A stretch of 64,000 nt of DNA from positions 1 to 64,000 of the forward strand of contig NZ_AXBE01000011.1 of NCBI RefSeq assembly GCF_000473165.1. The letters run 5' to 3'. The notes beneath the pieces were generated by a model. The model was not told where the DNA came from and did no database searches. It saw only the letters and a program-made list of their open reading frames with translations. Source of the stretch: Leisingera aquimarina DSM 24565 (GTDB taxonomy: Bacteria > Pseudomonadota > Alphaproteobacteria > Rhodobacterales > Rhodobacteraceae). This document shows, in pieces, positions 32,676-63,942 of the stretch. Every line of letters begins with the position of its first letter. Within the stretch, counting starts at the first letter, position 1. The translations under genes and the position numbers were made by a program.

Positions 32676-32679
32676 AGGA

Positions 32680-32994: not shown

Positions 32995-33006
32995 GAGATA
33001 TTCCTT

Positions 33007-33399: not shown

Positions 33400-33430
33400 A
33401 TTTATCTCCTCACGAATAGGGCTGGCACCT

Positions 33431-33461: not shown

Positions 33462-33475
33462 GGAGGTTATTTTCG

Positions 33476-47484: not shown

Positions 47485-48338
47485 TTCAGGTACCCGTAGC
47501 GCCGTGCCGTCTCGCGCACGCCTTCGTAAACGTCCCGGTCCACCGCGATGTAGCCGTCCGGCCCATAGAGATACGCCAGCAGGTGGCGGTTGCCTGGCTC
47601 ATTGAGCTGCAACATGGTTTCGATGAACTTGGCCTGCACGCCCTTGTCCAGGCCGGGCCGTGCAACAACCGCATGGCTTGGGATCTGTTCGCTTTCGGCC
47701 AGGACTTTGACTTCTGCCTGCTGATCCGGCGTCAGCAGAAGATCGGCATACTGGCTGGCGCCGGCGGCATCCACAAGCCCATTCGCCATGGCCTGCATCG
47801 CCTGCTGATAGCCCCCGGCAAAGAACTTCCGGCCAAAGAAATTGTCCGCATCGGCGGCATCGGCGATGAGCCCCTCGCGCACGAACAGATCAAGCGGGTA
47901 TAGATAGCCGGACTCCGATACCGGATCGGCAAAGGCAATGTCACGCCCTTTGAGGTCGGCCAGCGTCTCGATGCCGCTGTCCTTGCGGACAAACACGCGG
48001 CCCGCATAGCTCGGCTGCCCGCGGTAGACCTCGGAAAGCAGTGGCACGGCACCAATCTGATCCTCGGCCAGAACATAAGGCAGAGCGCCCATGAAAGATA
48101 TGTCTGCATCGCCGTTGCGCAGCGCCTCGACGGCGGCGGCATGGTCGAAGGTCACAAACCCTGTCACCGGCATTCCCATGCGTTCGGACAGCCAGCCGGT
48201 GACCGCCTTTATGTCGCCCAGCAGCTTTTCGGGGTTTTCTTGCGGAATGAAGGCCAGTTTCAGCTCCTCACCCGCTGCCAAGGCTGGCGCGGCGAGGATT
48301 GCGGCCGATACGGCCAGAAAATTGCGGCGCGACAGCAT
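47481..48338 (-). CDS. PhnD-type ABC transporter substrate-binding protein
   Basis: 285 residues, signal peptide with a twin-Arg-like start (LSRRNFLAVSAAILAAPALA). Mature part: LKLAFIPQENPEKLLGDIKAVTGWLSERMGMPV, DADISFMGALPYVLAED, GRDIAFADPVSESGYLYPLDLF, which is the phosphate/phosphite/phosphonate PhnD fold. Start overlaps the diheme peroxidase stop by one base. It belongs to the MntR-adjacent operon, so its ligand may be a manganese-related compound. That is inference. Confidence 0.85.
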   Translation of the reverse strand: MLSRRNFLAVSAAILAAPALAAGEELKLAFIPQENPEKLLGDIKAVTGWLSERMGMPVTGFVTFDHAAAVEALRNGDADISFMGALPYVLAEDQIGAVPLLSEVYRGQPSYAGRVFVRKDSGIETLADLKGRDIAFADPVSESGYLYPLDLFVREGLIADAADADNFFGRKFFAGGYQQAMQAMANGLVDAAGASQYADLLLTPDQQAEVKVLAESEQIPSHAVVARPGLDKGVQAKFIETMLQLNEPGNRHLLAYLYGPDGYIAVDRDVYEGVRETARRYGYLK

Positions 48339-50191: not shown

Positions 50192-50203
50192 GGTCGAACC
50201 TAC

Positions 50204-50227
50204 AAAAGTTAGCTTTGGCTAAATTGT
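50204..50227. promoter_or_regulatory. Putative MntR operator
   Basis: Dyad TTAGC-TTTG-GCTAA at 50209-50222 within a wider near-palindrome starting AAAAGTTAGC and ending GCTAAATTGT (8 of 10 arm positions symmetric). The layout matches the E. coli MntR box with its core ATAGC-N4-GCTAT. It lies in the 94 bases between the peroxidase/ABC operon and mntR. Confidence 0.75.
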
Positions 50228-50285
50228 GTAGTTTCTTCTATGCCGTTGTCAACCCGCTTTGTTGCAGGCATACAGGGAGGCCAAA

Positions 50286-50759
50286 ATGACATGCGATCCT
50301 ATGAGCGACATGACCGAAACAGATGAAAACGCCCTCAACCGAAGCCCAGATGAACAGGCGAGCGGTTTTGAGGCCGTACGCACGGCTCATCAAAGCGAGA
50401 TGGTCGAAGATTATGTCGAGCTGATTGCCGAGTTGATTCACATGAACGGCGCAGCGCGGCCTGTTGAAATCGCCGAGCGTCTAGGCGTGACCCAGCCCAC
50501 GGTCTCCAAGAACCTGAACCGCCTGAAACGGGAAGGGCTGATCCTGCAAGAGCCCTACCGTTCGATCCGCCTGACGGAAGAAGGCCGCCAGCTGGCCGAA
50601 GCCTGCCGCAAACGGCACAGGATCGTGGTGGATTTCCTCGTGGCTCTTGGCGTGTCGCAAGAGGTGGCCGAATATGATGCCGAAGGGATAGAGCACCACG
50701 TCAGCGAAGAAACTTTATCTGTTTTCCGTGCTTTTACCAGGGAGCGGAGCAAAAGCTGA
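50286..50759 (+). CDS. mntR: Manganese-responsive regulator MntR (DtxR family)
   Basis: 157 residues. HTH RPVEIAERLGVTQPTVSKNLNRLKREGLI, then RSIRLTEEGRQLAEACRKRHRIVVDFLVALGVSQEVAEYDAEGIEHHVSEETL, which carries the metal ligands expected for MntR (Asp near the N-terminus in VEDYVELI, plus Glu/His in the dimerisation helix). Strong resemblance to E. coli MntR. GGGAGG 6 bases ahead decides the start at 50286. Divergent from the peroxidase/PhnDCE operon; it represses in the presence of Mn(II). Confidence 0.92.
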   Translation: MTCDPMSDMTETDENALNRSPDEQASGFEAVRTAHQSEMVEDYVELIAELIHMNGAARPVEIAERLGVTQPTVSKNLNRLKREGLILQEPYRSIRLTEEGRQLAEACRKRHRIVVDFLVALGVSQEVAEYDAEGIEHHVSEETLSVFRAFTRERSKS

Positions 50760-50917
50760 ATTATTGTCGGCTCTTTTGACTGGGGTGGCTAGAGAGCCCA
50801 CAAAATTTCTGATGAGATCGTGCTGCCCATGACGAGGGCGGACAATTTTGGCGGGCTTTCGGCACAATAATACAGCTGCCCGCGCGGTTGCCTGCCGGTT
50901 TTACCACTTTCAAACTA

Positions 50918-51974
50918 GAGCGTGTTGCGATTTTCCGGATTCGGGGTTCCCCAAGGGCCGGTGCCGTGATTCCCTGTGCTTGAGGCAGATATGGGGGTCT
51001 GAATTGGGTAAGCCACTTCCTATTGAGCTCCGGCAGCGCGTTGTTGATTTCGTCGAAGAAGGGCACAGCCACCGTTCGACCGCCGCGCATTTCCGGGTAT
51101 CGGTCAAATTTGTGAATGACATGGTCAAACTGAAGCGGGAAACCGGATCCCTTGATCCCAAGCCGCAGGGGAATGGCGGAGGTCATGGCAAGCTTGGCAC
51201 CGTTCGCGACTGGCTCGAACGACGGATTGCCGAAAAGCGTGACCTGACCCTTGATGATCTGGTGGCCGAGCTTGAAGACCAGCATGGGATCTCCGCGCAC
51301 CGCGTGTCGGTTTGGCGCGTCCTTCGCAGCCTTGGCCTGACACACAAAAAAAGATCTGCAAGCTGTTGAGCAAAAACGCCCGGACGTCCTGCGGGCACGC
51401 CACATCTGGATCACGCGCCGCCAGCCCTTCATGCGCAACATGCTGACACGTTTGGGATTTATCGACGAAACCTCGTTAAAGACCAACATGGCCAAGACCA
51501 CCGGCTGGGCTCCCAAAGGCGCGCGCCTGATCGACCATGCACCCTTTGGCCATTGGAACACCCAGACCTTCGTCGCCGCCCTGCGGCATGACAGGCTGGA
51601 TGCCCCCTGGGTGATCGGCGGCGCGATGAACCGCGATTTCTTCGACCTCTATGTCGAGACCCAACTCGCGCCCACATTGCAGCGCGGCGACGTGATCATT
51701 CTCGACAACCTCGCGGCGCACAAAAGCCCGAACGCCGCAAAGGTTATGAAAGCTGTTGGGGCGTGGTTTCTGTTCCTGCCACCATACAGCCCCGATCTGA
51801 ACCCAATCGAAATGGCGTTCTCAAAGCTCAAGGCTCTGATCCGCAGGGCCGCCGCACGCACTTATGATGACCTGTGGAAGGCCGTCGGCCATGTCCGCGG
51901 CCTTTTCACAGAAGAGGAGTGTTACAACTTCTTCGCCGCCGCAGGGTATGAAACCGATTAAACGCAAACGGCTC
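50918..51974 (+). mobile_element. IS630-family insertion sequence
   Basis: 1057 bases bounded by TA on both sides (50916-50917 and 51975-51976), as expected for IS630 target duplication. The terminal inverted repeats begin GAGC at each end and agree at 14 of the first 21 positions (GAGCGTGTTGCGATTTTCCGG on the left; the right end, reversed, starts GAGCCGTTTGCG). It encloses one transposase gene in two frames. Confidence 0.87.
51004..51961 (+). CDS. IS630 transposase in two frames across an A7 run
   Basis: The first frame (TTG at about 51004, LGKPLPIELRQRVVDFVEEGHS, HTH THRSTAAHFRVSV-type, ending SLGLTHKKRS) gives the DNA-binding half. The second frame resumes with KDLQAVEQKRPDVLRARH and contains the DDE catalytic part: GFIDETSLKTNM, DVIILDNLAAHKS, YSPDLNPIEMAFSKLK. 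The join is at seven A (51345-51352). A slip by one base there restores the whole transposase. Frameshifting at A-runs is known in IS families, so it may be active; it could also be an inactivating indel. The element sits downstream of mntR. Confidence 0.8.
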
Positions 51975-52116: not shown

Positions 52117-53034
52117 TCATGAACCATGTCCAAACAACTCCGCGCCGGTGTGCATGTTGCCGGATGCCTCAAACTCCAAAACGGAATAGCGGATGCCATA
52201 GTGATTTGCGAGAGACGCTTTAATATCCGACTTGATCTGCTCAGCGTTGGCAAGGCATCCCTCTTCGACTACCACATGGCAATCGAGCGCGACCTCGTGT
52301 TCCTGCATTTGCCAAAGATGCACGTGATGAACATCGGCAACACCGTCCACGCTCCGGATCACTTCCACGACCCCCTTGCCGTCTATGTCCGGCGGGCTGC
52401 CCAACATCAGCGTCCGGATTGGACGGCCGATCTCAGTCACCGCGAGGTAGAGAATGTAAAGCGCGATACCAATTGTGATCGCAGGATCAACCCACTTCAT
52501 GTCATAGAGAATGATCAGCGAGCCACCGATGATCACGGCGACTGAAGCCAGCGCATCAGAAAGATTGTGCAGGAAGAGTGCTCGAATGTTAACACTGCCT
52601 TTCTGCATCGAGTAAGTGAGCAATGCGGTTAACGTGTCCACCACTAGCGCAATGCCGCCGAGGATTACGACAGTCCAGCCCGCAACCTCGGGCGGGTCGA
52701 TCATCCGCATGCCCCCCTCGTAGATGAGATAGACACCAACCAGTATGAGCGTTGTGTAGTTGACCAGCGCAGCGACAATCTCGATCCGGCCGTAGCCAAA
52801 AGTCATACGCTCGTCGGCGAGTCGCCTGGCGATCTTGCGCGCGGCAAACGCTATGAGGAGAGATGCCATATCTGAAAAGTTGTGCAACGCGTCCGCAACC
52901 AGAGCGAGGCTGCCCGCGAATATGCCGCCGACGACTTGGGCGATGGTCAGAAGCGCATTTGCCCAGATCGCGATGGAAATCCGGCGGTCTCCAGAATCAG
53001 GATCGATATGAGCATGGCCATGATCATGCGGCAT
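52117..53034 (-). CDS. Cation diffusion facilitator (Zn/Cd/Co-type) efflux protein
   Basis: 305 residues, six membrane helices and a cytosolic C-terminal domain. His-rich N-terminus (MPHDHGHAHIDPD). Metal site in helix 2: LVADALHNFSDMASLLIAF (HxxxD) and in helix 5: ALFLHNLSDALASVAVIIGG (HxxxD). The C-terminal domain has VHHVHLWQMQEHEVALDCHVV. This is a ZitB/CzcD-type exporter. Its start overlaps the transglutaminase-like gene, so both come from the MerR-type promoter at 53824. Confidence 0.92.
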   Translation of the reverse strand: MPHDHGHAHIDPDSGDRRISIAIWANALLTIAQVVGGIFAGSLALVADALHNFSDMASLLIAFAARKIARRLADERMTFGYGRIEIVAALVNYTTLILVGVYLIYEGGMRMIDPPEVAGWTVVILGGIALVVDTLTALLTYSMQKGSVNIRALFLHNLSDALASVAVIIGGSLIILYDMKWVDPAITIGIALYILYLAVTEIGRPIRTLMLGSPPDIDGKGVVEVIRSVDGVADVHHVHLWQMQEHEVALDCHVVVEEGCLANAEQIKSDIKASLANHYGIRYSVLEFEASGNMHTGAELFGHGS

Positions 53035-53818
53035 CTTGGTTTTCCTCGTGGCGGTGGTTCACCAAATCCAGTCCGGGGATGTGCGGCACGCGCCCGGACC
53101 GTATTGCGCGGACACGAGTATTCATCCAGTGGCGGATAACCTTGCGATAGAGCCAGTCACGCAAAATTCCGAACGCCTGCCGGTGATCCCGGTAGAATTC
53201 GTCCGGGGCGTCGAATGTTCCAAAATCCCGGGCAATACCAGTTTTCTGAATATAAGTGTCTCCACCTGTCCAATCGACTGGTGGCGCTGTCAAACAATTG
53301 GTTCCGGCACCATAGCCGCATAGGGTTTCGGCACCGGAAAAGGCGGCCTGGAGCGCCCCTAAGAATGACTCGTCAAGGATGAAACCCTCGAGATTGACCC
53401 AGCCTTCCTCTGTCTCGGCCTCCACCCATGAATGCAAGATCTCGCCTGGTGCAATTGGATAGACGATCTCTGGTACCACGCCCCGCTGCAGCGCCTTGTG
53501 GATCGTGAAGCCATGCAGCCGGCACCGCACACCAACTCCACGTAGAAGCGCCATGAGCAGTGTGCCCTTGGTGTTGCACTGGCCGTAGCCGTCGGCGAGA
53601 ACCCTGGAGGCCGGGATGTCATCCGCGTGGTTGTAACCAAAGGCAATCTCGTTGCGGACGAAGCCGTACACAGCGCCGATTTGCTCGTGCTGGGCCAGTT
53701 CCTTCCACCCGCGGTTCGTTATTAGCCTGGCAATTGACGGATGGTCAAAGTCCAATAGCCTCGTAGGCTTAAGAAGCGGATCTGCCGGATACACTGCATC
53801 TCTCCTCGAATCTTGCAA
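53024..53818 (-). CDS. Transglutaminase-like cysteine protein
   Basis: 264 residues. Transglutaminase-core motif: catalytic Cys in DGYGQCNTKGTLLMALLRGVGV, His in GEILHSWVEAETEEGWVNLEGF and the Asp following. No signal peptide, so it seems cytosolic. Probably a protease- or amidase-like enzyme of unknown substrate. It overlaps the CDF exporter gene by 11 bases and follows a MerR-type promoter, an unexpected partner for a metal exporter. Confidence 0.82.
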   Translation of the reverse strand: MQDSRRDAVYPADPLLKPTRLLDFDHPSIARLITNRGWKELAQHEQIGAVYGFVRNEIAFGYNHADDIPASRVLADGYGQCNTKGTLLMALLRGVGVRCRLHGFTIHKALQRGVVPEIVYPIAPGEILHSWVEAETEEGWVNLEGFILDESFLGALQAAFSGAETLCGYGAGTNCLTAPPVDWTGGDTYIQKTGIARDFGTFDAPDEFYRDHRQAFGILRDWLYRKVIRHWMNTRVRAIRSGRVPHIPGLDLVNHRHEENQDAA

Positions 53819-53823
53819 GAAGG

Positions 53824-53854
53824 GGTGTAACCGCTACAGTAACTGTAGCTTCAA
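53824..53854 (-). promoter_or_regulatory. MerR-type promoter of the transglutaminase/CDF operon
   Basis: Minus strand: -35 TTGAAG (53849-53854), 19-bp spacer, -10 TACACC (53824-53829). The spacer holds a perfect dyad GCTACAG-TTA-CTGTAGC (53833-53849). The 5' end of the mRNA would fall just upstream of the ATG at 53818. Confidence 0.85.
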
Positions 53855-54031
53855 GCCCTAATCCTGCAATCGCTATCCAGGATTGTCAGGATCACTTGCC
53901 TTTGAGCTGTTATGTAGTCCACTCCTTTTGCAGGCTGTGAGCCTCCAGACTTCGTGCTCGCAGCGGCTGCCTTCGAAAGAAGGCATGTCAGTGCTTAAAA
54001 GCACAACACCCCGGATAGTTGAGAGCTGCAC

Positions 54032-54460
54032 TCATGCGCCGATTTCGTCGTGCTCCGTCAGACATTCGGCATGATCACGGAGCACCTCAAGGACCCGGCA
54101 ATCAGATGTCTTGCCGCCACTGCATTCATGCACCATGCGTTCAAGCTCAGTGCGCAGCGCCTCAAGTCTGGCGATCCGCTGATACACCTGCTTCAACTGC
54201 CGCCGTGCTATAGCATCGGCTTCGTCGCAGGACCGGTCCGGATGGTCGCTCAGATCGAGTAGTTCCCGGATTGCATCCAGAGAAAAGCCGAGCTGGCGCG
54301 CGTGACGGATGAAGGACAGGCGATCAAGCTCGGCTTCACCATAGCGCCGCTGACCGCCTTCGGTCCTGCCTGGTTCGGGCATCAGGCCAATCTGTTCATA
54401 GTAGCGGATGGTCTGGACTTTGGTGCCAGTCTTCTTTCCCAAACTGCCAATCGTGAGCAT
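54032..54460 (-). CDS. MerR-family metal regulator (ZntR/CadR/PbrR-like)
   Basis: About 142 residues. HTH: LTIGSLGKKTGTKVQTIRYYEQIGLMPEPGRTEGGQRRY. Dimer helix and metal loop with Cys (SCDEADAI, HECSGGKTSDCRVLEV), which in full-length numbering correspond to Cys80, Cys115 and Cys123; ZntR and CadR use Cys at equivalent places. A GTG at 54466 is an alternative start. It is not MerR itself (Hg regulator at 33476 has different spacing). Likely senses Zn, Cd or Pb and controls the four 19-bp-spacer promoters around it. A degenerate dyad at 54476-54491 may autoregulate it. Confidence 0.9.
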   Translation of the reverse strand: MLTIGSLGKKTGTKVQTIRYYEQIGLMPEPGRTEGGQRRYGEAELDRLSFIRHARQLGFSLDAIRELLDLSDHPDRSCDEADAIARRQLKQVYQRIARLEALRTELERMVHECSGGKTSDCRVLEVLRDHAECLTEHDEIGA

Positions 54461-54565
54461 ACGCACCCCCAGGAAGCTACAGTTCTGGTAGGTTTAATTG
54501 GGTCTGGCACTGGCCACAACTCAATTCACAGACACGCGACAAAGTCCCTCTCCTGAAAAAAACGG

Positions 54566-54596
54566 TTGAACCTCTAGTAGCTGCAGGGTGTAGACG
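54566..54596 (+). promoter_or_regulatory. MerR-type promoter of the SCO/Dsb/PCuAC operon
   Basis: Plus strand: -35 TTGAAC (54566-54571), 19-bp spacer, -10 TAGACG (54591-54596). The spacer contains the imperfect dyad CCTCTAG-TAG-CTGCAGG. It lies directly upstream of the first SCO gene. Confidence 0.82.
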
Positions 54597-54634
54597 CGCA
54601 AAAAATACGTGGAATCAGAAACGGGCTGCTTGCT

Positions 54635-55231
54635 TTGAAGCTTAAACTCCTTCGGAAAATTCTCTGGGCGCTGGCGGCTGTTGCGCTAATTTGGCTTTTG
54701 CTTTGGGCGGATTATCGTGCGGATCAGGCCCGTAAGACGCAGTCGGCTTTCCGTGCGGCCTTCGAACTCACGGACCATCAAGGAATAACGCGGACGCAGG
54801 AAGACTTCGCCGGGCGGTGGATGCTAGTCTTTTTTGGCTTCGCGAACTGCCCCGATGTCTGCCCGACGACTCTCGCTGAGGTCGCCGCTGTGATGGAAGG
54901 TCTAGGTCCGGACGCCGGGCGGATTCAGCCGCTCTTCATCTCGATCGATCCCGAGCGCGATACACCAATGACGCTTGCAGATTTCGTACCGCGCTTTGAG
55001 GCCGGCATCATCGGTCTCACTGGGACCCCGGACCAGATCGACCGGACAGCGAAGAGCTTTCACATCTTTTACGAAAAAATTGAGGAGGCCGCGGCCCCCG
55101 AAGGCTACACGATGGGGCATTCCTCACAGCTGTTCCTCTTCGATCCTGAAGGTGGCTATGTCACGGCGTGGCCTTATGGCACGCAGGGTGAGGAAATCCT
55201 ATCCGATCTGAGAGAGAGGATTTCCTTATGA
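54635..55231 (+). CDS. SCO1/SenC-family copper chaperone/thiol protein
   Basis: 198 residues: N-terminal membrane anchor (ILWALAAVALIWLLLWADYRA) and a thioredoxin-like domain with the SCO copper/thiol site CPDVCP (FFGFANCPDVCPTTLAEV), ISIDPERDTP and the conserved His in MGHSSQLFLFDP. TTG start at 54635 with weak Shine-Dalgarno; no better start in frame. First gene of the metal-induced operon. The stop overlaps DsbB (ATGA). Confidence 0.85.
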   Translation: MKLKLLRKILWALAAVALIWLLLWADYRADQARKTQSAFRAAFELTDHQGITRTQEDFAGRWMLVFFGFANCPDVCPTTLAEVAAVMEGLGPDAGRIQPLFISIDPERDTPMTLADFVPRFEAGIIGLTGTPDQIDRTAKSFHIFYEKIEEAAAPEGYTMGHSSQLFLFDPEGGYVTAWPYGTQGEEILSDLRERISL

Positions 55232-55653
55232 CACTCAGGCTCACATCCGATGCGGCGCTCGCAGCCGCGTGGATCGTCGCACTAGTTTCCTCACTTGCCG
55301 TTCTGTTCATTGGCGAGGTATTGGGGCAAACGCCTTGTATCCTCTGCTGGTTTCAACGCGCCTTCATGTTCCCGCTGGCGGTCGTGCTGGGTTTCGGGCT
55401 CTGGTGGCAAGACGGGCTGGCCGGCCGCTACGGTATAGCGCTTTCTTTGGCCGGCGGAGCCATCGCACTGTGGCATCTCGGTCTATTCTGGGGGCTCCTT
55501 CCCGAACGAATCCAGCCCTGTACAGCGGCAGGTCCGTCCTGCACTGACGAAGGCCAGATTGTCCTCGGTCTGCCAATCCCGCTGCTCTCGCTCCTGGCCT
55601 TTGCTCTCATCGCCTCCCTGTCAGCCGCCTCTTTGAAGGAATTTACAGAATGA
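55228..55653 (+). CDS. DsbB/BdbC-type disulfide oxidoreductase
   Basis: 141 residues with four membrane helices. First Cys pair PCILCWFQRAFMFPL at the first periplasmic loop, second pair PCTAAGPSCTDEG. Reoxidises the DsbA-like partner encoded next. ATGA overlaps on both sides. Compact, as in BdbC. Confidence 0.87.
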   Translation: MTLRLTSDAALAAAWIVALVSSLAVLFIGEVLGQTPCILCWFQRAFMFPLAVVLGFGLWWQDGLAGRYGIALSLAGGAIALWHLGLFWGLLPERIQPCTAAGPSCTDEGQIVLGLPIPLLSLLAFALIASLSAASLKEFTE

Positions 55654-56309
55654 ACCGCCGCTCCTTAATTCTCTCCGTTCCCGCTCTCGCAATTGCGGCC
55701 TTTTCTGGCGCCGCCTGGTATGCAACGCGATCAGAGTCCGTTGGGGAAGCAACCTCAGTCGCTCCGGAGATTGCGGACGCTTTGATTCGGCCCTATTCGC
55801 CGGTTCTCGGCCCCGAGGATGCGCCCGTGACGATCGTGGAGTTCTTCGATCCTGCGTGCGAAGCCTGCCGCGCATTTTACCCGGTCGTGAAGGACATTAT
55901 GGCCGAACATGGCGACGCAGTGCGCGTGGTGATCCGCTACACACCGTTTCACGGGGAAGCTTCGGAAGAAGCGATCCAGGTCCTTGAAGCTGCACGCATA
56001 CAGGGGGTCTTTGAGGAAGTTCTGGAAGCGATACTGAGGGATCAGCCCCGCTGGGCGTCCCACGGTGCGCCCGAGCCCGGCCTCATCCTCAATATCGCTG
56101 AGCGCGCAGGCCTGGACGCAGAGGCCGCGCGGACGCAAATGCGACTGCCGGATATTATAGGCATCCTCAATCAGGACCGCGCAGATGTCGAAGCAGTGGG
56201 CGTGCGCCAGACGCCAACCTTCTTCGTGAATGGCAAGCCGCTCGATCAGTTCGGCGAGGCGGAGTTGCGTACGCTGGTCGCAAAGGAAGTCGCGGCAGTC
56301 AAAAGCTGA
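55650..56309 (+). CDS. DsbA/BdbD-type thiol-disulfide oxidoreductase
   Basis: 219 residues. Signal or anchor helix (LILSVPALAIAAFSGAAWY), thioredoxin fold with Cys-Glu-Ala-Cys (FFDPACEACRAFYPVVKD) and the cis-Pro loop VRQTPTFFVNGKPL. Introduces disulfides into secreted proteins. It overlaps dsbB by 4 bases. The DsbB/DsbA pair between SCO proteins suggests maturation of periplasmic metal proteins. Confidence 0.88.
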   Translation: MNRRSLILSVPALAIAAFSGAAWYATRSESVGEATSVAPEIADALIRPYSPVLGPEDAPVTIVEFFDPACEACRAFYPVVKDIMAEHGDAVRVVIRYTPFHGEASEEAIQVLEAARIQGVFEEVLEAILRDQPRWASHGAPEPGLILNIAERAGLDAEAARTQMRLPDIIGILNQDRADVEAVGVRQTPTFFVNGKPLDQFGEAELRTLVAKEVAAVKS

Positions 56310-56337
56310 CGGGAAAGTAGAAAGGAAAAATAACGAG

Positions 56338-56802
56338 ATGAAACCGGTACTTCATGCTGCCCTTGCAGCACTTGTGCTGCCACTCGGCGCCGCCTCCGCC
56401 GCGCTGGCCGATTCCGGCCAAGTGAGCATCGAGAATGCCTGGTCGCGGGCATCTATCGGCACCAGCCGTCCCGGAGCTGCCTACATGGAGATAGTGAACG
56501 AAGGCGATGAGGCAGTCACACTGACAGGGATCAAGACTGACATTGCCATGATGCCCGAAATTCACCGGAGTTCGATGAACGAACAAGGCGTCAGTTCAAT
56601 GGCTCCGGCAGGTCACGTGTCCATTGCACCAGGTGAGACCGTCGCGCTGGAGCCCGGCGGTCTGCATGCCATGCTGATGAAGCTTCAGCGTCCGATGCAC
56701 GAAGGGGAGACTTTTCCGCTTACGCTTATTTTCTCGGACGGTGGCGGGGTAGCGGTCGACGTTCCGGTTCTTGGCATCGCAGCGCGCGGCCCGGGAAACT
56801 GA
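56338..56802 (+). CDS. Periplasmic copper chaperone PCu(A)C
   Basis: 154 residues with signal peptide (LHAALAALVLPLGAASAALA). The Cu(I)-binding Met/His set is visible: MMPEIHRSSMNEQGVSSM and GGLHAMLMKLQRPM (H-x-M-x pattern of the family). Delivers copper to SCO and cytochrome oxidase. Its stop overlaps the second SCO gene by one base. Confidence 0.88.
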   Translation: MKPVLHAALAALVLPLGAASAALADSGQVSIENAWSRASIGTSRPGAAYMEIVNEGDEAVTLTGIKTDIAMMPEIHRSSMNEQGVSSMAPAGHVSIAPGETVALEPGGLHAMLMKLQRPMHEGETFPLTLIFSDGGGVAVDVPVLGIAARGPGN

Positions 56803-57428
56803 TGCGGCGGCGTTCAGCTTTCGGATATGGCGCGGCGGCATTTGGTGCAATCGGCCTGACACTCTTTCTGGGCTGGTGGCGTGTGGACGGCCCCGGCGCA
56901 CCAGAGCCTATGGGCCAACGGCCCTTACCGCTTACGGCGATGGACTTCCGCCTGACTGACCACCAAGGGCAGCTCGTCGGCCCTGAAATGCTGGTCGGGC
57001 GCCCGTCGATGGTATTCTTCGGTTTCACCTATTGTCCTGACGTCTGCCCCACGACGCTCTCGGACATCTCCAGCTGGCTGGACATGGTGGGCGAGGACGC
57101 CGAGCGGCTGGACATCATCTTCATTACAGTCGATCCCGAACGCGACACTGTCGACGCTATGGCGGAGTATGTCGGCTACTTCCATCCGGCGATCCGCGGC
57201 TGGACCGGTCCAGAAGCGCAGATCAAGCGTGCAATCGAGGGTTTCCGCGCGACCTATGAAAAGGTAGCGGGCGAGGATGGGGGGTATACGATGAACCATA
57301 CGGCGAGCGTCTTCCTGTTCGACGCCGAGGGGCGCTTCGTCAGCACTATCGACTATCACGAACCGAGGGAATTCGCAGTTCCGAAAATCCGGCGCGCAAT
57401 GAAAGAGAAGCCCGGGGGAGCGACATGA
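56802..57428 (+). CDS. SCO1/SenC-family protein, second copy
   Basis: 208 residues. N-terminal helix (YGAAAFGAIGLTLFLGWW), then FRLTDHQGQLVGPEMLVGRPS, copper/thiol site FFGFTYCPDVCPTTLSDI, ITVDPERDTV and Cu-ligand His in TMNHTASVFLFDAEG. It is clearly diverged from the first SCO protein in the operon. Overlaps the M23 peptidase gene (ATGA). Confidence 0.88.
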   Translation: MRRRSAFGYGAAAFGAIGLTLFLGWWRVDGPGAPEPMGQRPLPLTAMDFRLTDHQGQLVGPEMLVGRPSMVFFGFTYCPDVCPTTLSDISSWLDMVGEDAERLDIIFITVDPERDTVDAMAEYVGYFHPAIRGWTGPEAQIKRAIEGFRATYEKVAGEDGGYTMNHTASVFLFDAEGRFVSTIDYHEPREFAVPKIRRAMKEKPGGAT

Positions 57429-58798
57429 GGATGAAGTGCCTGATCACCGGGCTGGCGGCCGCGGGCGGGGTTTCGGCGGCGGTCGCAGTGGTCGCCACCT
57501 CCTACTCAACAGAGCCTGTACTGCCGACCCTTGCCGAAGCTGGCGTTTGGGAACCTGCGCCCCTCACGCCGCCTCGGTTTGTGGAAGGCCCCTCTTACAG
57601 GCTTGCCCGCACGCGGCCTGGAAGTGCGCCGGACTTTCGTCCGCCGTTCCTTCCAGCCGTGGTAAGGAACGATGCTCCGCTGACTGCCATAGAACCGCCA
57701 CTCATCACATGGTCACGCAAAATGGCTCGGGGTGAGACGCTTGATGCGGTTCTGGCCGAGGCCGGGCTTGCCGCCACAGACCGCGCAGAGATCGCCCTTG
57801 CGATTGGCGCAGAATACGATCTCCGCCGACTGCGCCCCGGTCACGCAATCACTGTCATATCCACGACAGATGGAAGCCCTCGCAATGTGACCCTTGTTGT
57901 CGAAGAGGGCATACGGATCGAGGTATTATTTGGAGAGCAGCTCGCCACCCGGGTTGTGGCCCCTGAACCCGAAATCGTGACCCTTGCTGGCGAGACCAGG
58001 ATCGAAACCTCGATCTTCGGGGCATTGGACGATGCCGGGATACCAGCCCGGTTCGCCGTCGATCTGGCGCAAATGCTGGGCGGCACAGTGGATTTCCGGC
58101 GCGAACTGAGCGGCGGCGAGACGCTGCGCCTTCTCTGGCGCGAGGCGCGGGTTGCGAACAAGGCTGTCCGCCAGCCCGAAATTTCGTTCGCTGCATTGGA
58201 CCTTGGAGACGCTCTCTATGAAATAGCCTGGCCAGAGGATGGAACCGGCAAGGCTACAATCTATCTCGACGGCGAAGTGCTGCGTGTCTTTTCCCAGCCA
58301 GTAGAGGGCGCGCGGCTAACTTCCGTCTTCGGCCGCCGCAATCACCCGGTCTTTGGCAATGTCCGCATGCACACTGGTGTGGACTTTGCTGCAGCGCGTG
58401 GAACGCCTGTCCGCGCCACTGCGCCCGGAAGTATTGCGTTTATTGGATGGCGCGGTGGCTATGGCCGTGTTGTCGAGATTGCCCATGGTGCGGACACACT
58501 GACCCGCTATGCTCATCTCAGCGCCGTGCCCGAAGGCCTTGCTGAGGGTCAACGCGTGTCGGCCGGGGATACCATCGGCCGGATCGGCGCGACGGGCACT
58601 GCGACCGGCCCCAATCTGCATTACGAGGTGCGCGTAGACGGCCGGCCCACTGACCCGCTCTCCGATGACCGGCTCGCCGAGGCCGCCGGACGCGCGACAC
58701 CGGACACAGCGGCGCTTACACGCCTGAGGGCGGCACGCGCCAGGCTGGAGGAGCAGCTTGCCAGCGTGATCGCCGCGAACCCCAATGAAAGGCTTTGA
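57425..58798 (+). CDS. M23-family peptidoglycan metallopeptidase
   Basis: 457 residues, signal-type N-terminus (LITGLAAAGGVSAAVAVVATS). The middle has a LysM/OapA-like region (ARGETLDAVLAEAGLAATD ... LRRLRPGHAITVIS). The C-terminal LytM domain has VFGRRNHPVFGNVRMHTGVDFAA with the zinc-binding His and Asp, AHLSAV, and GTATGPNLHYEVRVDGRPTDP with the second His pair. Cleaves peptidoglycan peptides. Unusual inside a copper/thiol operon. Confidence 0.88.
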   Translation: MRMKCLITGLAAAGGVSAAVAVVATSYSTEPVLPTLAEAGVWEPAPLTPPRFVEGPSYRLARTRPGSAPDFRPPFLPAVVRNDAPLTAIEPPLITWSRKMARGETLDAVLAEAGLAATDRAEIALAIGAEYDLRRLRPGHAITVISTTDGSPRNVTLVVEEGIRIEVLFGEQLATRVVAPEPEIVTLAGETRIETSIFGALDDAGIPARFAVDLAQMLGGTVDFRRELSGGETLRLLWREARVANKAVRQPEISFAALDLGDALYEIAWPEDGTGKATIYLDGEVLRVFSQPVEGARLTSVFGRRNHPVFGNVRMHTGVDFAAARGTPVRATAPGSIAFIGWRGGYGRVVEIAHGADTLTRYAHLSAVPEGLAEGQRVSAGDTIGRIGATGTATGPNLHYEVRVDGRPTDPLSDDRLAEAAGRATPDTAALTRLRAARARLEEQLASVIAANPNERL

Positions 58799-58800
58799 CC

Positions 58801-59256
58801 ATGAAACGACCGATCGCCGCCCTGGCATGTGCTCTTGCCCTGCTCCCCGCCGCACAGGTGCTGGCCCAATCGACGCCCATTGAGGTTAAAAAGACCAATG
58901 GCTGCGGTTGCTGCCTCGCCTGGATGGAACATCTGGGGGAAAGCGGGTTTGTTCCAAGCGGAAAAAACATGTTCGCAGGGCTGCTCGTGCGGTTCAAACT
59001 CGACAACGGTGTGCCGCAGCGCATGGTTTCTTGCCACACAGGTCTCACCGAGGGTTACGTAATTGAGGGGCATGTGCCCGCGGCCGACATTCGCAGGCTC
59101 CTTGCCGAGCGTCCCGACGCAGTGGGTCTTGCCGTACCCGGCATGCCGCTCGGATCGCCTGGTATGGATCAGGGCAGCTGGCGAGAGGCTTACGATGTGT
59201 TCCTTATCAACAATGACGGCTCGACCGAAGTCTACGCCAGTTACCCTGGCAACTGA
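58801..59256 (+). CDS. DUF411 metal-binding-type periplasmic protein
   Basis: 151 residues: signal peptide (IAALACALALLPAAQVLAQ) then the DUF411 core with NGCGCCLAWMEHLGESGF, MVSCHTGLTEGYVIEGHVPA and PGMPLGSPGM. The Cys-Gly-Cys-Cys and Met/His positions suit a soft-metal site. DUF411 genes often accompany copper or arsenic resistance. Last gene of the operon beginning at 54635. Confidence 0.87.
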   Translation: MKRPIAALACALALLPAAQVLAQSTPIEVKKTNGCGCCLAWMEHLGESGFVPSGKNMFAGLLVRFKLDNGVPQRMVSCHTGLTEGYVIEGHVPAADIRRLLAERPDAVGLAVPGMPLGSPGMDQGSWREAYDVFLINNDGSTEVYASYPGN

Positions 59257-59479
59257 TCAGCACGATTGCACGCGGGCTGAGAACGGAGCTGTATTCCTCT
59301 GTGCGCCTGGCCGTTCAGGCTACCTTGCAACCAAATCACTTGATGATCACAGACCGGTTTCGTTTCTACGGACGGAGTATACCGATGCCTGCGAGGTGAT
59401 CGTGATGGTGTTTGCAATCTCGGCCCTAAATGCCGCAATTCAAGCACCATTTGCGTGACTGCCCGCCGTCGAGCGCGGT

Positions 59480-59989
59480 CTATGCATATATTTCGATGGG
59501 CGTCCCGTCCCGCACCATTGCATAGACCTCTTCGATCTGGCGGTCGGACACAGAGATACAGCCTGCGGTCCAGTCGCGTTTGTTCATTGGGTCAATGCCC
59601 CGTCGCGGCCCGCCATGTATGAAGATGTCACCACCCGGAGACTTGTCTTGCGCCGCTGCAAATGCGATGTCCGCCTCGTTTGGATAAGAGATGCCGATGG
59701 AGAGGTGGAACAGACTGTCAGGATTGCGCCGGTCAATGAGGTAGGCGCCTTCGGGTGTTCGTCCATCCCCCTCAAATTGCTTATGACCTTCCGGTGCAAA
59801 CCCCAGCCCGACCGGGTAGGTGCGCAAAACACCCTCAGCGCCATCCAGAACAAGCAAACGTTCTGATTTGTAGAGCCGCAAACGGGTAACTTCGGGCCCG
59901 GTATAACTACGGAACTTGCTTGCACAGCCGGATAGGAGGACGGCAATGCCGCCCAGTAGAATTCTGCGTCTCGGGATTCTGTTGATCAT
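59480..59989 (-). CDS. Lipoprotein L,D-transpeptidase (YkuD domain)
   Basis: 169 residues. Lipobox-like LLGGIAVLLSGCAS at the N-terminus. YkuD domain with LRLYKSERLLVLDG, GDGRTPEGAYLIDRRN, the conserved IFIHGGP and catalytic Cys in TAGCISVSDRQIEEVY. Makes 3-3 crosslinks or links proteins to peptidoglycan. It follows the P-type ATPase by 63 bases in the same direction and may share its promoter. Confidence 0.87.
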   Translation of the reverse strand: MINRIPRRRILLGGIAVLLSGCASKFRSYTGPEVTRLRLYKSERLLVLDGAEGVLRTYPVGLGFAPEGHKQFEGDGRTPEGAYLIDRRNPDSLFHLSIGISYPNEADIAFAAAQDKSPGGDIFIHGGPRRGIDPMNKRDWTAGCISVSDRQIEEVYAMVRDGTPIEIYA

Positions 59990-60052
59990 CGCTGCTCGGT
60001 GCCATTATTGACGGCTTGTTACCACAACCCTAGTTGAAGGGCCGGCACCAAA

Positions 60053-62404
60053 TCAATGACCATGTGCCAAAGCGCCCTTCGCCATTTGTTCACCTGCTGG
60101 CTCGCCGCCTTCCGGCGGCGACTTGTGGCGGCCGTCCGCGTTCAGAAGCCGCAGCGCATTGGCCACCACCAGCAACGACACACCCACGTCCGCAGCAATG
60201 GCCCCCCACATCGAGGCCATTCCGAATGCAGTCGCCACGACAAAGGCGGTTTTCGTCGCTAACGAAAGGCCGATATTCTGGCGGATGATGCTCATCGTGC
60301 GGCGCGAATGGGCAATCAGCCACGGCACCTTGGCGATGTCATCTGTCATCAGCGCGATGTCCGCCGTCTCGATGGCCGCGTCCGAGCCTACGGCGCCCAT
60401 GGCGATGCCGTAATGCGCCCGCGCCATGGCGGGGGCATCGTTTACGCCGTCCCCAATCATGGCAACAACCGAATGGCTGTCCACCAGTTCCTCGATGGCG
60501 GTTACCTTGTCTTCTGGCAGCAGTTCAGCGCGAACCTCGTCGATGCCGACTTCGGCTGCTACCGCGCGCGCCGTGCGCTCGTTGTCGCCAGTCAGCATGA
60601 CGATGGTGTTGACACCCTGTGCGTGCAATCGAGAGACGATGCCTTTGGCGTCAGGCCTGATCCGGTCGCGCAGTTCAAGAACGCCCAACACGCCCGTCTC
60701 GTCGCCCAACGCGACCAGCGTCGCCCCCGCCCCTTCGATCCGGTCCCGCAACTCATCAGGAATGGCATCCCCAAAACCTTTCTCCGCGGCGAACCGGTCA
60801 GAACCAAGCCAGACGGGCCGGTCACCCATGCGACCTTCGAGCCCGCGCCCCGGCACTGTGCGGGTATCCTCCGCAGCGGCTACTGAAACGGCATCCCGCC
60901 CGGCGCGCTCGAGGATAGCGCGTGCTAGCGGATGCGAGGAGCGCGCCTCCAGCGACGACGCCAGCGCAAGCAGGTCCCGCGCCTCCACCATTCCAAGCGG
61001 ATGGATTGCCGCAACCTCAGGGCGGCCCTCGGTGATCGTTCCGGTCTTGTCCAAGGCCAGCGCCGTCGTGCGGCCAGGTGCCTCGACATAGGCGCCGCCC
61101 TTGATCAGCACGCCCGCCCGCGCCGAAGAGGCCAGCGCCGCTACGATCGAGACAGGCGTTGAAATCACCAGCGCACAGGGGCAGGCGATGACCAGGAGCA
61201 CCAGAGCATTATAGAACCAGAAACCCCAGGCGCCGCCAACAAGTGGCGGAAGAACCGCGAGGGAGATGGCCAGTGCCATGACCACCGGCGTGTAAATCCG
61301 CGCGAACTTCGCCACCCACTGTTCCACAGGAGCGCGGCGTGCATGCGCGTCGCCAACCATGCGTATGATTTTCGAAAGCACTGTGTCCGATGCCGCCTTC
61401 GTTGCGCGCACAGTGAGCGTTCCCTCGCCATTGATGGTGCCGGCATAGACTTCGTCGCCCGGCTCCTTCGGCACCAGGGCGCTTTCACCGGTGATGGGGG
61501 CCTGATCAACGGCACCTGCTCCCCCTACGACTTCACCGTCAAGCGGAATGCGGTCGCCGCCGCGCACAATGAATTTTGCATTAAGCGCCACGGCGGAAGC
61601 CGGTATGTCCGCTTCCGATCCATCGTCGTAAAGCACCCTTGCCGTGGGGGGCGCGAGGTCCAGCAGCGCCGAAACTGCGTTCCTCGCACGGCCGACGCTC
61701 CAGCTCTCGAGATAGAGCGAAAGCGAGAAGAAGAAGGCGACCGTCGCGGCCTCGAAGAATTCGCCGAGGCCGATGGCGCCGGCCACGGCGACGACCATCA
61801 GGAGGTTCATGTCAGGCGAGAACCGCCGCGCTGAGGACCACGCCTTGGGAGCGACGAGCCAGACGCCAAAGAGGATCGCAACAGCGAAGAGCCCGGCTTC
61901 GGCCATCGGCATCGGTGCCTCCCCATGGCCAGCGAACAGCCCTATAGCCCCGCTCATACCGGTCTCGACGATGTGGTAGAGGAAACCTGCTGCCCAGAAA
62001 CTGCCACTCAACGCGGTGAAGCGCCATTGACGTGCCAGATGCGCCGCCTGGTCCTCCGCTGCGTTTTCGGCGTCCCAGGGCTTTGCGCTCATCCCGGTAC
62101 TGGCGACCAACCTGGCGACCTCTGAGTTGGATAATGCTCTTGCGGTATCAAGGATCGTCATGCGTCCGTTGATCACATCAAACGCAAGATGTACGGTACC
62201 GCCCACATTCGGACCCACCACCCGGTTCAGAATTGCCACCTCTTCGGCGCAGTCGAGTCCGGAGATCTGGAAACTGCGCCCGTTGGCAGGGGGCGGGCCT
62301 GCCGGACCAATGTCCCCACAGGTTGAAGCACCGCCGCAGCAGGCAGATTCATGATCCTGCGTGCAGGTGCTATTGTCATCGTTACGGCGGGTTTCGAGCG
62401 GCAT
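60053..62404 (-). CDS. Zn/Cd/Pb-exporting P1B-type ATPase
   Basis: 783 residues. Cys-rich N-terminus (Cys14, Cys22, Cys23, Cys29) and one HMA-like domain with GLDCAEEV (Cys52, CxxE instead of CxxC). Membrane metal site CPC 408-410 (LLVIACPCALVISTP), phosphorylation Asp452 in DKTGTITEG, TGES near residue 305 and GDGVNDAPAMARA. CPC plus the DCAEEV HMA points to the Zn/Cd/Pb subclass. It starts below a MerR-type promoter and is probably the main exporter of the module. Confidence 0.92.
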   Translation of the reverse strand: MPLETRRNDDNSTCTQDHESACCGGASTCGDIGPAGPPPANGRSFQISGLDCAEEVAILNRVVGPNVGGTVHLAFDVINGRMTILDTARALSNSEVARLVASTGMSAKPWDAENAAEDQAAHLARQWRFTALSGSFWAAGFLYHIVETGMSGAIGLFAGHGEAPMPMAEAGLFAVAILFGVWLVAPKAWSSARRFSPDMNLLMVVAVAGAIGLGEFFEAATVAFFFSLSLYLESWSVGRARNAVSALLDLAPPTARVLYDDGSEADIPASAVALNAKFIVRGGDRIPLDGEVVGGAGAVDQAPITGESALVPKEPGDEVYAGTINGEGTLTVRATKAASDTVLSKIIRMVGDAHARRAPVEQWVAKFARIYTPVVMALAISLAVLPPLVGGAWGFWFYNALVLLVIACPCALVISTPVSIVAALASSARAGVLIKGGAYVEAPGRTTALALDKTGTITEGRPEVAAIHPLGMVEARDLLALASSLEARSSHPLARAILERAGRDAVSVAAAEDTRTVPGRGLEGRMGDRPVWLGSDRFAAEKGFGDAIPDELRDRIEGAGATLVALGDETGVLGVLELRDRIRPDAKGIVSRLHAQGVNTIVMLTGDNERTARAVAAEVGIDEVRAELLPEDKVTAIEELVDSHSVVAMIGDGVNDAPAMARAHYGIAMGAVGSDAAIETADIALMTDDIAKVPWLIAHSRRTMSIIRQNIGLSLATKTAFVVATAFGMASMWGAIAADVGVSLLVVANALRLLNADGRHKSPPEGGEPAGEQMAKGALAHGH

Positions 62405-62436
62405 AGGCGGACCTTCAGATTCGACGAGATCCTTCG

Positions 62437-62467
62437 AACCTAATTCCTACAGCACCTAGAGCTTCAA
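62437..62467 (-). promoter_or_regulatory. MerR-type promoter of the P-type ATPase
   Basis: Minus strand: -35 TTGAAG (62462-62467), 19-bp spacer, -10 TAGGTT (62437-62442). Dyad within the spacer: CTCTAG-GTG-CTGTAG. Located about 30 bases ahead of the ATPase ATG at 62404. Confidence 0.82.
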
Positions 62468-62600
62468 GTGGTCAAACCCGTTTTTTCGCTACACGCTCAA
62501 ATGCGCCGTAAATGCGAGGGTCCGACCTCTGGCTTGTGGCGAAACATACCGTATGCCAGATTGCCGACGGGAAACAAAAAAGCAAACGGCAGAGGTTCAG

Positions 62601-62873
62601 ATGCAGAAACGAAATGCGGCAATCGTGGCCACAATGCTAATTCTGGCAGGATGCTCTTCCTCTACCAGTGTCTCCGGCAACGCCGCAACGCGGGTCGGAA
62701 ACGTGCCTGACGCCGTCGTTGATCTCGCGGCTCCGGGACAAAATCTTGCGTCTGCACGGCTTCTGCCTGAAGACGGCTGCTACTGGTATGAGCATAGCGG
62801 GCCAGTTGAAACCACGTTGCTGCCGCTTAGAACAACGGCGGGAAACCCGATCTGTTCGAAACCGGCGGCATAG
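62601..62873 (+). CDS. Small lipoprotein
   Basis: About 90 residues. Lipobox: AAIVATMLILAGCSSSTS. The mature part carries RLLPEDGCYWYEHSGPVETTLLPLR with two Cys. No family recognised. AGAGG precedes the ATG. It is divergent from the P-type ATPase and convergent with an L,D-transpeptidase, and its Cys/Tyr-rich core hints at a periplasmic surface role. Confidence 0.65.
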   Translation: MQKRNAAIVATMLILAGCSSSTSVSGNAATRVGNVPDAVVDLAAPGQNLASARLLPEDGCYWYEHSGPVETTLLPLRTTAGNPICSKPAA

Positions 62874-62895
62874 TACAGATCATGAGACCTCCGCC

Positions 62896-63561
62896 TCAAC
62901 TCTGCGCTGTGATGCCGTCTTCGGCCTCGTATAGAAAGGCCGTCGAACCAGGTTCCACGTTTGGGTAGAGATCGTTGATATGCGCCATCACCATTCGGAC
63001 GCATCCTGAACTTGCCCTGCCACCGATCGAACGCGGCCATGGCGTTCCATGAATACGCAGGTAGGTATCGCGGTTTCCGACATACAAATAGAGAGCGCGG
63101 GAACCTAACGCGTTCTTCGGGCCTGGTTCCTGCCCATCTGCATACTGGGAATAGGCCTCCGGGTCGCGTTCGATCATGGATTGAGTAGGCGTCCAATGCG
63201 GCCACTCAACTTTTCGCCGGATGGTGTAAGTGCCAGGTTCGTACAAATTGCCACGGGCTATGGCCACACCATAGCGCATGGCGGTTCCGCCTTCTTCAAT
63301 GTGGTAAAGATATCGCGCAATGGCATCGACATGGATGTCCCCCGGCACCAACCCGTCGTTTGCAACGACCCGGGTCGGAAGAAAACGTTGATGCAGCCCC
63401 CATGGATTAGACGTTGCCGGATCATAGTTTGGCGGTGTGATTTGAGCGTCCCAATTTGCTTTCTGAGTAGCGGTCGGCCAAGATCCTGCATCCACCGTTC
63501 CTGCAATTGCGGTAGAGAACAGTGCTGACGAACTTGCGACAAAATGGCGTCTCGTAATCAT
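62896..63561 (-). CDS. Tat-exported L,D-transpeptidase (YkuD domain)
   Basis: 221 residues. Twin-Arg signal (MITRRHFVASSSALFSTAIA). YkuD domain: YHIEEGGTAMRYGVAIARG, YLYVGNRDTYLRIHGTPWP and catalytic Cys in SSGCVRMVMAHINDLYP. Similar to ErfK/YbiS-type enzymes with the HGT and SSGCVRM motifs. Controlled by the MerR-type promoter at 63610. Different from the lipoprotein enzyme at 59480. Confidence 0.9.
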   Translation of the reverse strand: MITRRHFVASSSALFSTAIAGTVDAGSWPTATQKANWDAQITPPNYDPATSNPWGLHQRFLPTRVVANDGLVPGDIHVDAIARYLYHIEEGGTAMRYGVAIARGNLYEPGTYTIRRKVEWPHWTPTQSMIERDPEAYSQYADGQEPGPKNALGSRALYLYVGNRDTYLRIHGTPWPRSIGGRASSGCVRMVMAHINDLYPNVEPGSTAFLYEAEDGITAQS

Positions 63562-63942
63562 ATCTGAGAATTCCTCCTGTGCCGTTTGCTTACGTCGAAT
63601 GACCCCACTCCGATAAGAGCTACAGCTACTAAAGGGTCAAGGGGTTTCTGAGGTCGCGCATAGATTTCTGGACCGGAAAATTTTCGCTTACTGTCCCAAA
63701 CTTGCAAGAACACCGTGGGTAGGGAAAATTTGTTCAATTCAACACGGGGCGGTCTATGACAGCGAAATTGAATGGTGGACTTTGGCCCATCGCGCCACGC
63801 GATGGCTTCGATGGCAGGGCGAACATCGGCCTGCTCAGGACACGGCTTGTTCAAGTGCTCTGATCTGAGAGACGTCGAAGATGTACAAAAATTGATTCAG
63901 AGCCATTTTTGAATGCTTATGCCGCGTCCCGGTATCATGCCG
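63562..63942. other. Spacer upstream of the L,D-transpeptidase
   Basis: About 380 bases. Contains the MerR-type promoter at its lower end. The remainder has a minus-strand frame without start signal (up to about 63854) that I do not trust as a gene. Confidence 0.4.
63610..63640 (-). promoter_or_regulatory. MerR-type promoter of the Tat-exported L,D-transpeptidase
   Basis: Minus strand: -35 TTGACC (63635-63640), 19-bp spacer, -10 TATCGG (63610-63615). Dyad in the spacer: CTTTAG-TAG-CTGTAG. About 50 bases ahead of the ATG at 63561. Confidence 0.82.

Follow-up and report, generated by a model that had tools for sequence, protein, structure and literature searches.

Why do metal exporters and cell-envelope enzymes in one gene island stand behind promoters of the same unusual architecture? 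The island lies in the first 64,000 bases of contig C4 (248,908 bp) of Leisingera aquimarina DSM 24565, a member of the Roseobacter group; we refer to this whole 64,000-base stretch as the window. From left to right, the island comprises genes for a CDF-family exporter and a transglutaminase-like protein (TGase; both on the minus strand), a MerR-family regulator (minus), a SCO-DsbB-DsbA-PCuAC-SCO-M23-DUF411 operon (plus), an L,D-transpeptidase (LDT1) and a Zn/Cd/Pb-type P1B ATPase (minus, the ATPase being transcribed first), a small putative lipoprotein (plus), and a second L,D-transpeptidase (LDT2; minus). We predict, and consider it probable, that the four promoters of the island belong to one MerR-type regulator, which would join metal exporters and envelope genes in one regulon.

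The initial annotation described four promoters with the -35 elements TTGAAG, TTGAAC, or TTGACC, a 19-bp spacer, and a dyad resembling CTNTAG-N3-CTGTAG. This description can be read directly in the sequence and is backed by pattern and matrix searches. All four promoters have a -35 element, a 19-bp spacer, and a -10 element, and a 15-bp dyad immediately follows the -35 element (Table 1). The dyad is exact in two sites and a single base off in the other two. A dyad within a promoter spacer of 19–20 bp is characteristic of the MerR family, in accordance with the 19 bp found here. The downstream genes are as initially assigned for the SCO operon, the ATPase, and LDT2, but the CDF gene does not directly follow promoter 1: the TGase gene is first and the CDF gene second. 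The ATPase unit was also incompletely described, since its operon holds LDT1 as well.

The pattern TTGAMSCTNTAGNNNCTGTAG with up to three mismatches has five matches in the window, versus 0.13 expected. In the whole genome, the same pattern with at most one mismatch has four matches, all at the island, and a relaxed pattern (TTGAMSCTNNAGNNNCTNNAG) without mismatches finds the same four only. Looser settings show no enrichment in the whole genome: 20 matches versus 101 for the reversed-pattern control (up to three mismatches), and 111 versus 228 (relaxed pattern, up to two mismatches). Only the near-exact genome matches are informative, because the looser counts fall under the control. Because both patterns were derived from the four sites themselves, a 31-position matrix trained on other genomes, with the window left out (13 distinct SCO1 and 12 distinct TGase promoters), provides a less biased test. 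The matrix finds all four, including sites 3 and 4, which belong to promoter classes absent from the training set. The next-best site in the window is a mer-like operator (10.6). First-order randomisation of the window, repeated 80 times, gives a maximum score of 16.8, with one match of at least 15 and none of at least 20. The match at 33441 was rejected as a fifth member; it adjoins another MerR gene in an apparent mer operon and scores only 10.6. This operon (identified by eye; window 32300-33900, minus strand; operator 33431-33461) serves as an internal control, and its MerR-family gene (~33503-33880, plus strand) is 44% identical to the island regulator.

The operators are conserved in relatives. 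A scan for relatives of the regulator gave 538 loci; the best 80, which were retained, come mostly from Rhodobacterales, plus a few from Thalassospira and other records. The 80 loci contain many near copies (their promoter 31-mers amount to 14 distinct sequences for SCO1 and 13 for TGase), and the counts for these two classes are in-sample, as their sites trained the matrix, whereas ATPase and LDT2 sites are out of sample. All 72 loci with SCO1 have an SCO1 operator scoring at least 18; for loci with TGase, the corresponding count is 58 of 66, plus one partial. Most of an ATPase gene is present in 20 loci and its site is visible in 5; in those inspected of the other 15, the site is not visible because the stretch starts inside the gene and the promoter lies off the end. 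Further out-of-sample stretches came from 11 other genera with both the regulator and LDT2, and from one genus (G087) with LDT2 but without the regulator. All four promoter classes score at least 17.8 in five of the 11 (G035, G086, G050, G076, and G072) and the rest have them partly; the TGase gene of G050 is split in two frames, and its site comes from a separate reading of the stretch. The stretches of eight other genera include a close ATPase, and its site scores 26.2 to 31.5 in each of them. The distant ATPase of G047 scores -23.0 at the expected position because the match starts late; the full frame has a site 39 bp upstream. The LDT2 site scores at least 17.8 in the same five genera and in G031, 16.8 in G049, and 11.7 in G099, and by the matrix is absent from the stretches of G048, G047, G066, and G087.

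Zero-mismatch matches to TTGAAVCTNNAGNNNCTNNAGNNNNTA number 39 across 11 genomes, versus 0 for the reversed control. The downstream gene was read for 35 of them (all but four on G035:C4), and 33 of these precede ATPase, CDF, TGase, SCO, M23, DUF411, or LDT2 genes; one of these genes, a CDF (L230), was named by eye, and two more from weak similarity to CDF (27 and 34%). The remaining two precede a TRAP-like transporter (by eye; G099:C10 102688, L211 12689) and an uncharacterised frame ~800 bp before LDT2. G035 has eight such matches: those of LDT2, ATPase, SCO1, and TGase are on C2, and the other four, identically spaced, are on C4. Among 120 genera, 48 have a zero-mismatch match, versus none for the control. 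Where a genus has just one match, it may often be of the type of a chromosomal paralog of the regulator (see below); two of these loci were read.

The operator of LDT2, remote from the regulator gene, accompanies the regulator, as expected for control by a single regulator. LDT2 matches at 1e-40 occur in 52 of 120 genomes, and the 28 with 1e-80 or better (at least 63% identity) were used; 32 of 36 copies were scored, taking the best per genome (omitted: two on G035:C4, one on G072:C1, and one on G099:C4). Of the 12 genera that have a close ortholog of the regulator (at least 73% identity, L. aquimarina included), 8 have the LDT2 site, and of the 16 that lack one, none does (Fisher p=0.00016, score threshold 15); four of the 16 hold a more distant relative of the regulator (61-70%). 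The p-values are guides only, because the thresholds were chosen by us and the genera are related. Together with the operators kept before the same genes in other genera, this association supports the initial proposal of a metal and envelope regulon under a single MerR-type protein.

The regulator gene lies, read from its ATG, where initially annotated, and its Pfam scores place the product in the MerR family (N-terminal winged helix and dimerisation helix). It has four cysteines, Cys78, Cys113, Cys121, and Cys133 (80, 115, 123, and 135 if translation starts at the GTG at 54466), all invariant across 18 aligned sequences. Cys78, Cys113, and Cys121 align with those of CadR (6jgv) and of the 5gpe chains, matching the three-cysteine signature of CadR/PbrR. 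The top solved-structure match is 5gpe, which we take to be PbrR691. However, the type label ZntR/CadR did not hold. The regulator stays below the cut-offs for CadR-PbrR (TIGR02047, 109.9 versus 151.45 bits), ZntR (TIGR02043, 104.9 versus 167.95), a second Zn model (NF007069, 118.6 versus 143), CueR (TIGR02044, 118.0 versus 147.4; the regulator has Cys at the sensing position), and mercury MerR (TIGR02051, 108.0 versus 150.85). Since no curated cut-off is reached, both names were rejected and the metal is not assignable by family. The sensing-helix Cys position is essential in all divalent-metal MerR regulators tested (PMC3431237; here and below, citations refer to excerpts of the papers). In addition, Roseobacter litoralis, which carries the island plasmid, is unimpaired up to 0.08 mM zinc, whereas Roseobacter denitrificans does not grow at 0.02 mM; copper tolerance is reversed, R. 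litoralis being below R. denitrificans (PMC3141670). This contrast is a correlation between two species. The signal is likely a divalent soft metal (Zn, Cd, or Pb). A degenerate operator-like dyad ahead of the regulator start scores only 2.2, and a similar dyad recurs in the aligned intergenic regions of relatives (26 shown of 54 aligned). It may serve to repress the regulator's own gene, as described for CadR loci (PMC1526738).

Table 1 Features of the island, in order of position in the window
Feature	Position	Strand	Evidence
CDF-family cation exporter	52117..53034	-	PF01545, PF16916; TIGR01297 235 bits; motifs HNFSD, HNLSD
TGase, transglutaminase-like protein, first gene after operator 1	53024..53818	-	PF01841; catalytic-type Cys81
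Operator/promoter 1	53824..53854	-	TTGAAG-CTACAGTTACTGTAGCGGT-TACACC; dyad CTACAGTTACTGTAG; matrix 30.0
MerR-family regulator	54032..54460	-	PF13411 72.7 bits, PF00376 55.4, PF09278 83.3, all above cut-off
Degenerate operator-like dyad ahead of regulator start	54467..54497	-	TTAAAC-CTACCAGAACTGTAGCTTC-CTGGGG; matrix 2.2
Operator/promoter 2	54566..54596	+	TTGAAC-CTCTAGTAGCTGCAGGGTG-TAGACG; dyad CTCTAGTAGCTGCAG; matrix 35.3
SCO1/SenC copper-delivery thiol protein (CPDVC)	54635..55231	+	PF02630
DsbB-like disulfide oxidoreductase	55228..55653	+	PF02600
DsbA-like thioredoxin-fold protein (CEAC)	55650..56309	+	PF13462, PF01323
PCu(A)C copper chaperone	56338..56802	+	PF04314
Second SCO1/SenC protein (CPDVC)	56802..57428	+	PF02630
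M23 peptidoglycan endopeptidase	57425..58798	+	PF01551; top NCBIfam similarity ShyC, MepM, below cut-off
DUF411 protein (CGCC), final gene of SCO operon in window	58801..59256	+	PF04214
LDT1, L,D-transpeptidase, lipoprotein-like signal (LSGC), second gene of ATPase operon	59480..59989	-	PF03734
Zn/Cd/Pb-type P1B ATPase, Cys-rich N-terminus	60053..62404	-	TIGR01512 500.5 bits (cut-off 313.5)
Operator/promoter 3	62437..62467	-	TTGAAG-CTCTAGGTGCTGTAGGAAT-TAGGTT; dyad CTCTAGGTGCTGTAG; matrix 32.7, out of sample
Small putative lipoprotein (LAGC), convergent with LDT2	62601..62873	+	
LDT2, L,D-transpeptidase, Tat-like signal (TRRHF)	62896..63561	-	PF03734; catalytic-type Cys187
Operator/promoter 4	63610..63640	-	TTGACC-CTTTAGTAGCTGTAGCTCT-TATCGG; dyad CTTTAGTAGCTGTAG; matrix 20.2, out of sample

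From what is common to the MerR family, we infer the following switch. The regulator would bind the dyad in each of the four promoters, and the 19-bp spacer would hold RNA polymerase poised. The metal, a soft divalent one and most probably Zn, Cd, or Pb, would be bound by Cys78 of one subunit and by Cys113 and Cys121 of the other. Metal binding would twist the spacer, and one metal would thereby turn on four units together: TGase-CDF (unit 1), SCO-DsbB-DsbA-PCuAC-SCO-M23-DUF411 (unit 2), P1B ATPase-LDT1 (unit 3), and LDT2 (unit 4). Binding of MerR to a 19-bp spacer and metal-driven activation have been described (PMC3431237; PMC1526738). The exporters would remove metal from the cytosol, and the envelope genes would resupply periplasmic and wall enzymes poisoned by soft metals, namely disulfide enzymes, copper delivery to cytochrome oxidase, L,D-transpeptidases, and an endopeptidase; in most related loci, the lipoprotein-maturation enzymes LspA and Lnt would be resupplied as well. 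Inhibition by copper has been reported for L,D-transpeptidases, disulfide formation, and lipoprotein maturation (PMC6593411, PMC11390936). The recurrence of the arrangement in related bacteria suggests that metal defence includes envelope repair. We only tentatively propose replacement as the purpose of the envelope genes. It is possible, although the balance is somewhat against it, that a cytosolic sensor directly commands envelope replacement, from disulfide formation, copper delivery, and lipoprotein maturation to L,D-crosslinking with a wall-opening endopeptidase, so that peptidoglycan would be remodelled as part of mobile metal resistance.

Several observations weigh against this reading. 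At a threshold of 15, 4 of the 12 genera with the regulator and LDT2 lack the LDT2 site, and the association is weaker at other cut-offs: a threshold of 18 gives 6/12 versus 0/16 (p=0.0025), and a regulator cut-off of 60% identity gives 8/16 versus 0/12 (p=0.008). Among the 80 loci, the TGase site is missing at a score of 18 in 8 of 66, and an LDT2-like gene lacks the site at this score in 4 of 12. The SCO1 sites of G066 (16.0) and G049 (13.5) are weak, and 14 distinct operator rows stand ahead of unassigned frames (two of them TGase-like starts and one at a contig edge). The regulator fits no curated metal subfamily among the NCBIfam models compared. By-eye inspection of the TGase protein revealed no signal for export, and the targets are thus not all envelope proteins. 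Finally, the L,D-transpeptidase activity of Vibrio cholerae was inhibited by no metal salt tested other than copper (PMC11390936). Purpose and signal thus fit imperfectly: the envelope targets are copper targets, and the exporters and the sensing Cys are of the divalent type.

One alternative is a copper regulon, in which a CueR/HmrR-like Cu(I) sensor drives SCO, PCuAC, DUF411, Dsb, and L,D-transpeptidase genes in answer to copper damage, with the ATPase and the CDF exporter as passengers. Seven residues separate the two loop cysteines of the regulator, which we take to be the spacing of CueR, and some source annotations call its orthologs Cu(I)-responsive. The operon content and the known copper targets (PMC6593411, PMC11390936) point the same way. 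However, the regulator misses the CueR cut-off and the ATPase is of the Zn/Cd type (379.7 bits with the copper model TIGR01511, under the cut-off of 397). The residue at the sensing position is Cys and not Ser, which we assume for CueR. R. litoralis, an island carrier, is the less copper-tolerant species (PMC3141670), and another copper-handling operon of contig C4 (L037) has no site scoring at least 6. A copper regulon is thus unlikely. The L037 operon (G000:C4 ~64272-71441, minus strand) holds CcdA-like, PCuAC-like, SCO, DsbA-like, ResA-like, and DUF411 genes, named by eye, by tblastn, and from a similar annotated set, and was rejected as a regulon member. A lead-type, PbrR-like system would be a special case of the divalent-metal reading, with Pb(II) sensed and the envelope genes, LspA acting as PbrC, sequestering lead or conferring tolerance to it. 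The invariant fourth, C-terminal Cys recalls C134 of PbrR, which is required for the Pb response (PMC3431237), LspA in the related loci parallels PbrC, and 5gpe is the top structure match. Lead is nevertheless doubtful as the signal, as the CadR-PbrR cut-off is missed, the spacing of the fourth Cys differs, and zinc tolerance is the sole carrier phenotype found.

The sites could also be shared with a paralog on the chromosome (C1:669577), 54% identical to the island regulator. At least two MerR paralogs would then form a network on common operators, the plasmid-type regulator acting at sites 1 and 2 and the chromosomal paralog also driving or competing at sites 3 and 4. The paralog's operator (TTGATG-CTCTAGTGACTAGAGGTCC-TACTTT) scores 25.9 with the same matrix, above site 4, and some genomes, e.g., G076 and G010, have a second, more distant relative of the regulator. 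But this operator deviates at the -35 element (TTGATG) and adjoins the paralog's own CDF-like gene (by eye), all 16 genera without a close regulator ortholog lack LDT2 sites, and sites 3 and 4 are mostly near the regulator (although G031 and G049 have LDT2 on another contig). We regard such a network as improbable. The paralog locus (G000:C1 669364-670492; L040 7365-8493), in which the paralog is divergent from the short CDF-like gene, looks like a related regulon. In locus L258, a relaxed-pattern operator precedes a TGase gene and a weak CDF match. Lastly, recombination may have carried the promoters along with mobile genes, in which case they would share no function, and the L,D-transpeptidases and M23 would serve something other than metal defence. 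This is very unlikely: the island is plasmid-borne and mosaic between genera, but the -35 element, the dyad, and the 19-bp spacing are kept while the flanks diverge, and no site precedes additional LDT2 copies located elsewhere on the same contigs (G035 C2:3662, G086 C14:16619).

The predicted envelope set is wider in relatives. The R. litoralis plasmid pRLO149_83 carries the island with five such promoters, one of them for a third L,D-transpeptidase behind the CDF gene, and its SCO operon continues into ZIP, LspA, and Lnt. Of the 68 DUF411 copies in the 80 loci, 64 have ZIP as the next gene (three of the rest are at contig edges and one is otherwise); the order DUF411-ZIP-LspA-Lnt on one strand is found in 63 loci, and LspA in 64. 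The window copy has neither ZIP-LspA-Lnt behind DUF411 nor the third transpeptidase behind the CDF gene. Judged by these relatives, the ZIP-LspA-Lnt extension appears to have been lost from the window's island. Operators also stand ahead of frames outside the set, including CBS-domain-like (L088 11142), CcdA-like (L095 10767; L103), and several short frames; the CBS-domain and CcdA names were given by eye. In L063, L068, L098, and L105 (three Roseovarius and one Pontibrevibacter), an operator near base 2800 precedes a long CcmF-like frame (by eye), which suggests that the regulon extends to haem attachment (cytochrome c maturation) in some genera.

Contig C4 is presumably a plasmid, judging from relatives such as Leisingera aquaemixtae, whose record is the nearest plasmid to the locus (99.1% identity across 83% of the 12 kb compared). 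The CDF exporter is taken as Zn/Cd type from HxxxD in two helices. The TGase gene probably starts at a GTG near 53794. The gene orders TGase-CDF and ATPase-LDT1 also occur in R. litoralis (the latter on pRLO149_83), and the former in other related loci as well. The tblastn matches to the small lipoprotein adjoin 13 of 15 close LDT2 copies in the comparison stretches, including that of G087, which lacks the regulator; the lipoprotein is a possible substrate or partner of LDT2. Beyond the CDF gene lies a transposase in two frames (window 50848-51961; DDE_3 match), presumably IS630-like; at this position R. litoralis has an ICMT gene and the third L,D-transpeptidase with its own operator. A cytochrome c peroxidase-like gene and an MntR-like regulator (window 48338-50759) adjoin the island, as they do in Leisingera aquaemixtae R2C4.

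MerR metal regulons are already known, and this gene set is a variant. It resembles CadR/PbrR regulons (e.g., pbrTRABCD of Cupriavidus metallidurans) in the MerR-type activator, the 19-bp spacer promoter, the Zn/Cd/Pb P1B ATPase, and, in most related loci, LspA (PbrC). Unlike these, it has four separate promoters, a regulator under the CadR-PbrR cut-off, and SCO/Dsb/PCuAC, M23, L,D-transpeptidases, Lnt, and TGase as targets. With ZntR-zntA of Enterobacteria it shares the divalent sensing Cys and a ZntA-type ATPase, but its regulator does not reach the ZntR cut-off. ZntR is normally tied to a single target gene. As in CueR/HmrR copper regulons, some targets handle copper, and the loop of the regulator is presumably similar in length; the sensing Cys and the Zn/Cd-type exporters differ. 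The targets of the Escherichia coli Cpx response include Dsb and wall enzymes. Cpx likewise answers copper damage to lipoprotein maturation (PMC6593411), but it is a two-component system sensing envelope defects, whereas the island's cytosolic metal sensor would act directly. In metal-tolerant Mesorhizobium, Zn induces a P1B ATPase, the neighbouring CcdA, and LspA in both strains, and Cd likewise induces the ATPase and CcdA (PMC3668242); that gene set is another one, and the excerpts show no common regulator or operator. PMC1526738 names transporters, copper chaperones, a multicopper oxidase, candidate cytochromes, and possibly glutathione-S-transferases as MerR targets, and "transpeptidase" appears nowhere in its text. 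Among the papers listed by searches of open-licence literature, which leaves out most subscription journals, none was seen to describe these genes as targets of a MerR regulator, and excerpts of PMC9426580, PMC10864386, and PMC10141476 hold nothing on this locus.

The usual view of metal resistance plasmids is one of pumps and detoxifying enzymes. In this island, present in many marine Rhodobacterales, one small regulator appears to tie the pumps to enzymes of peptidoglycan crosslinking, disulfide formation, and lipoprotein maturation. The locus offers a direct test of two ideas: that defence has been selected to counter the toxicity of metals in the envelope, and that seawater metals alter the crosslinking of the cell wall.

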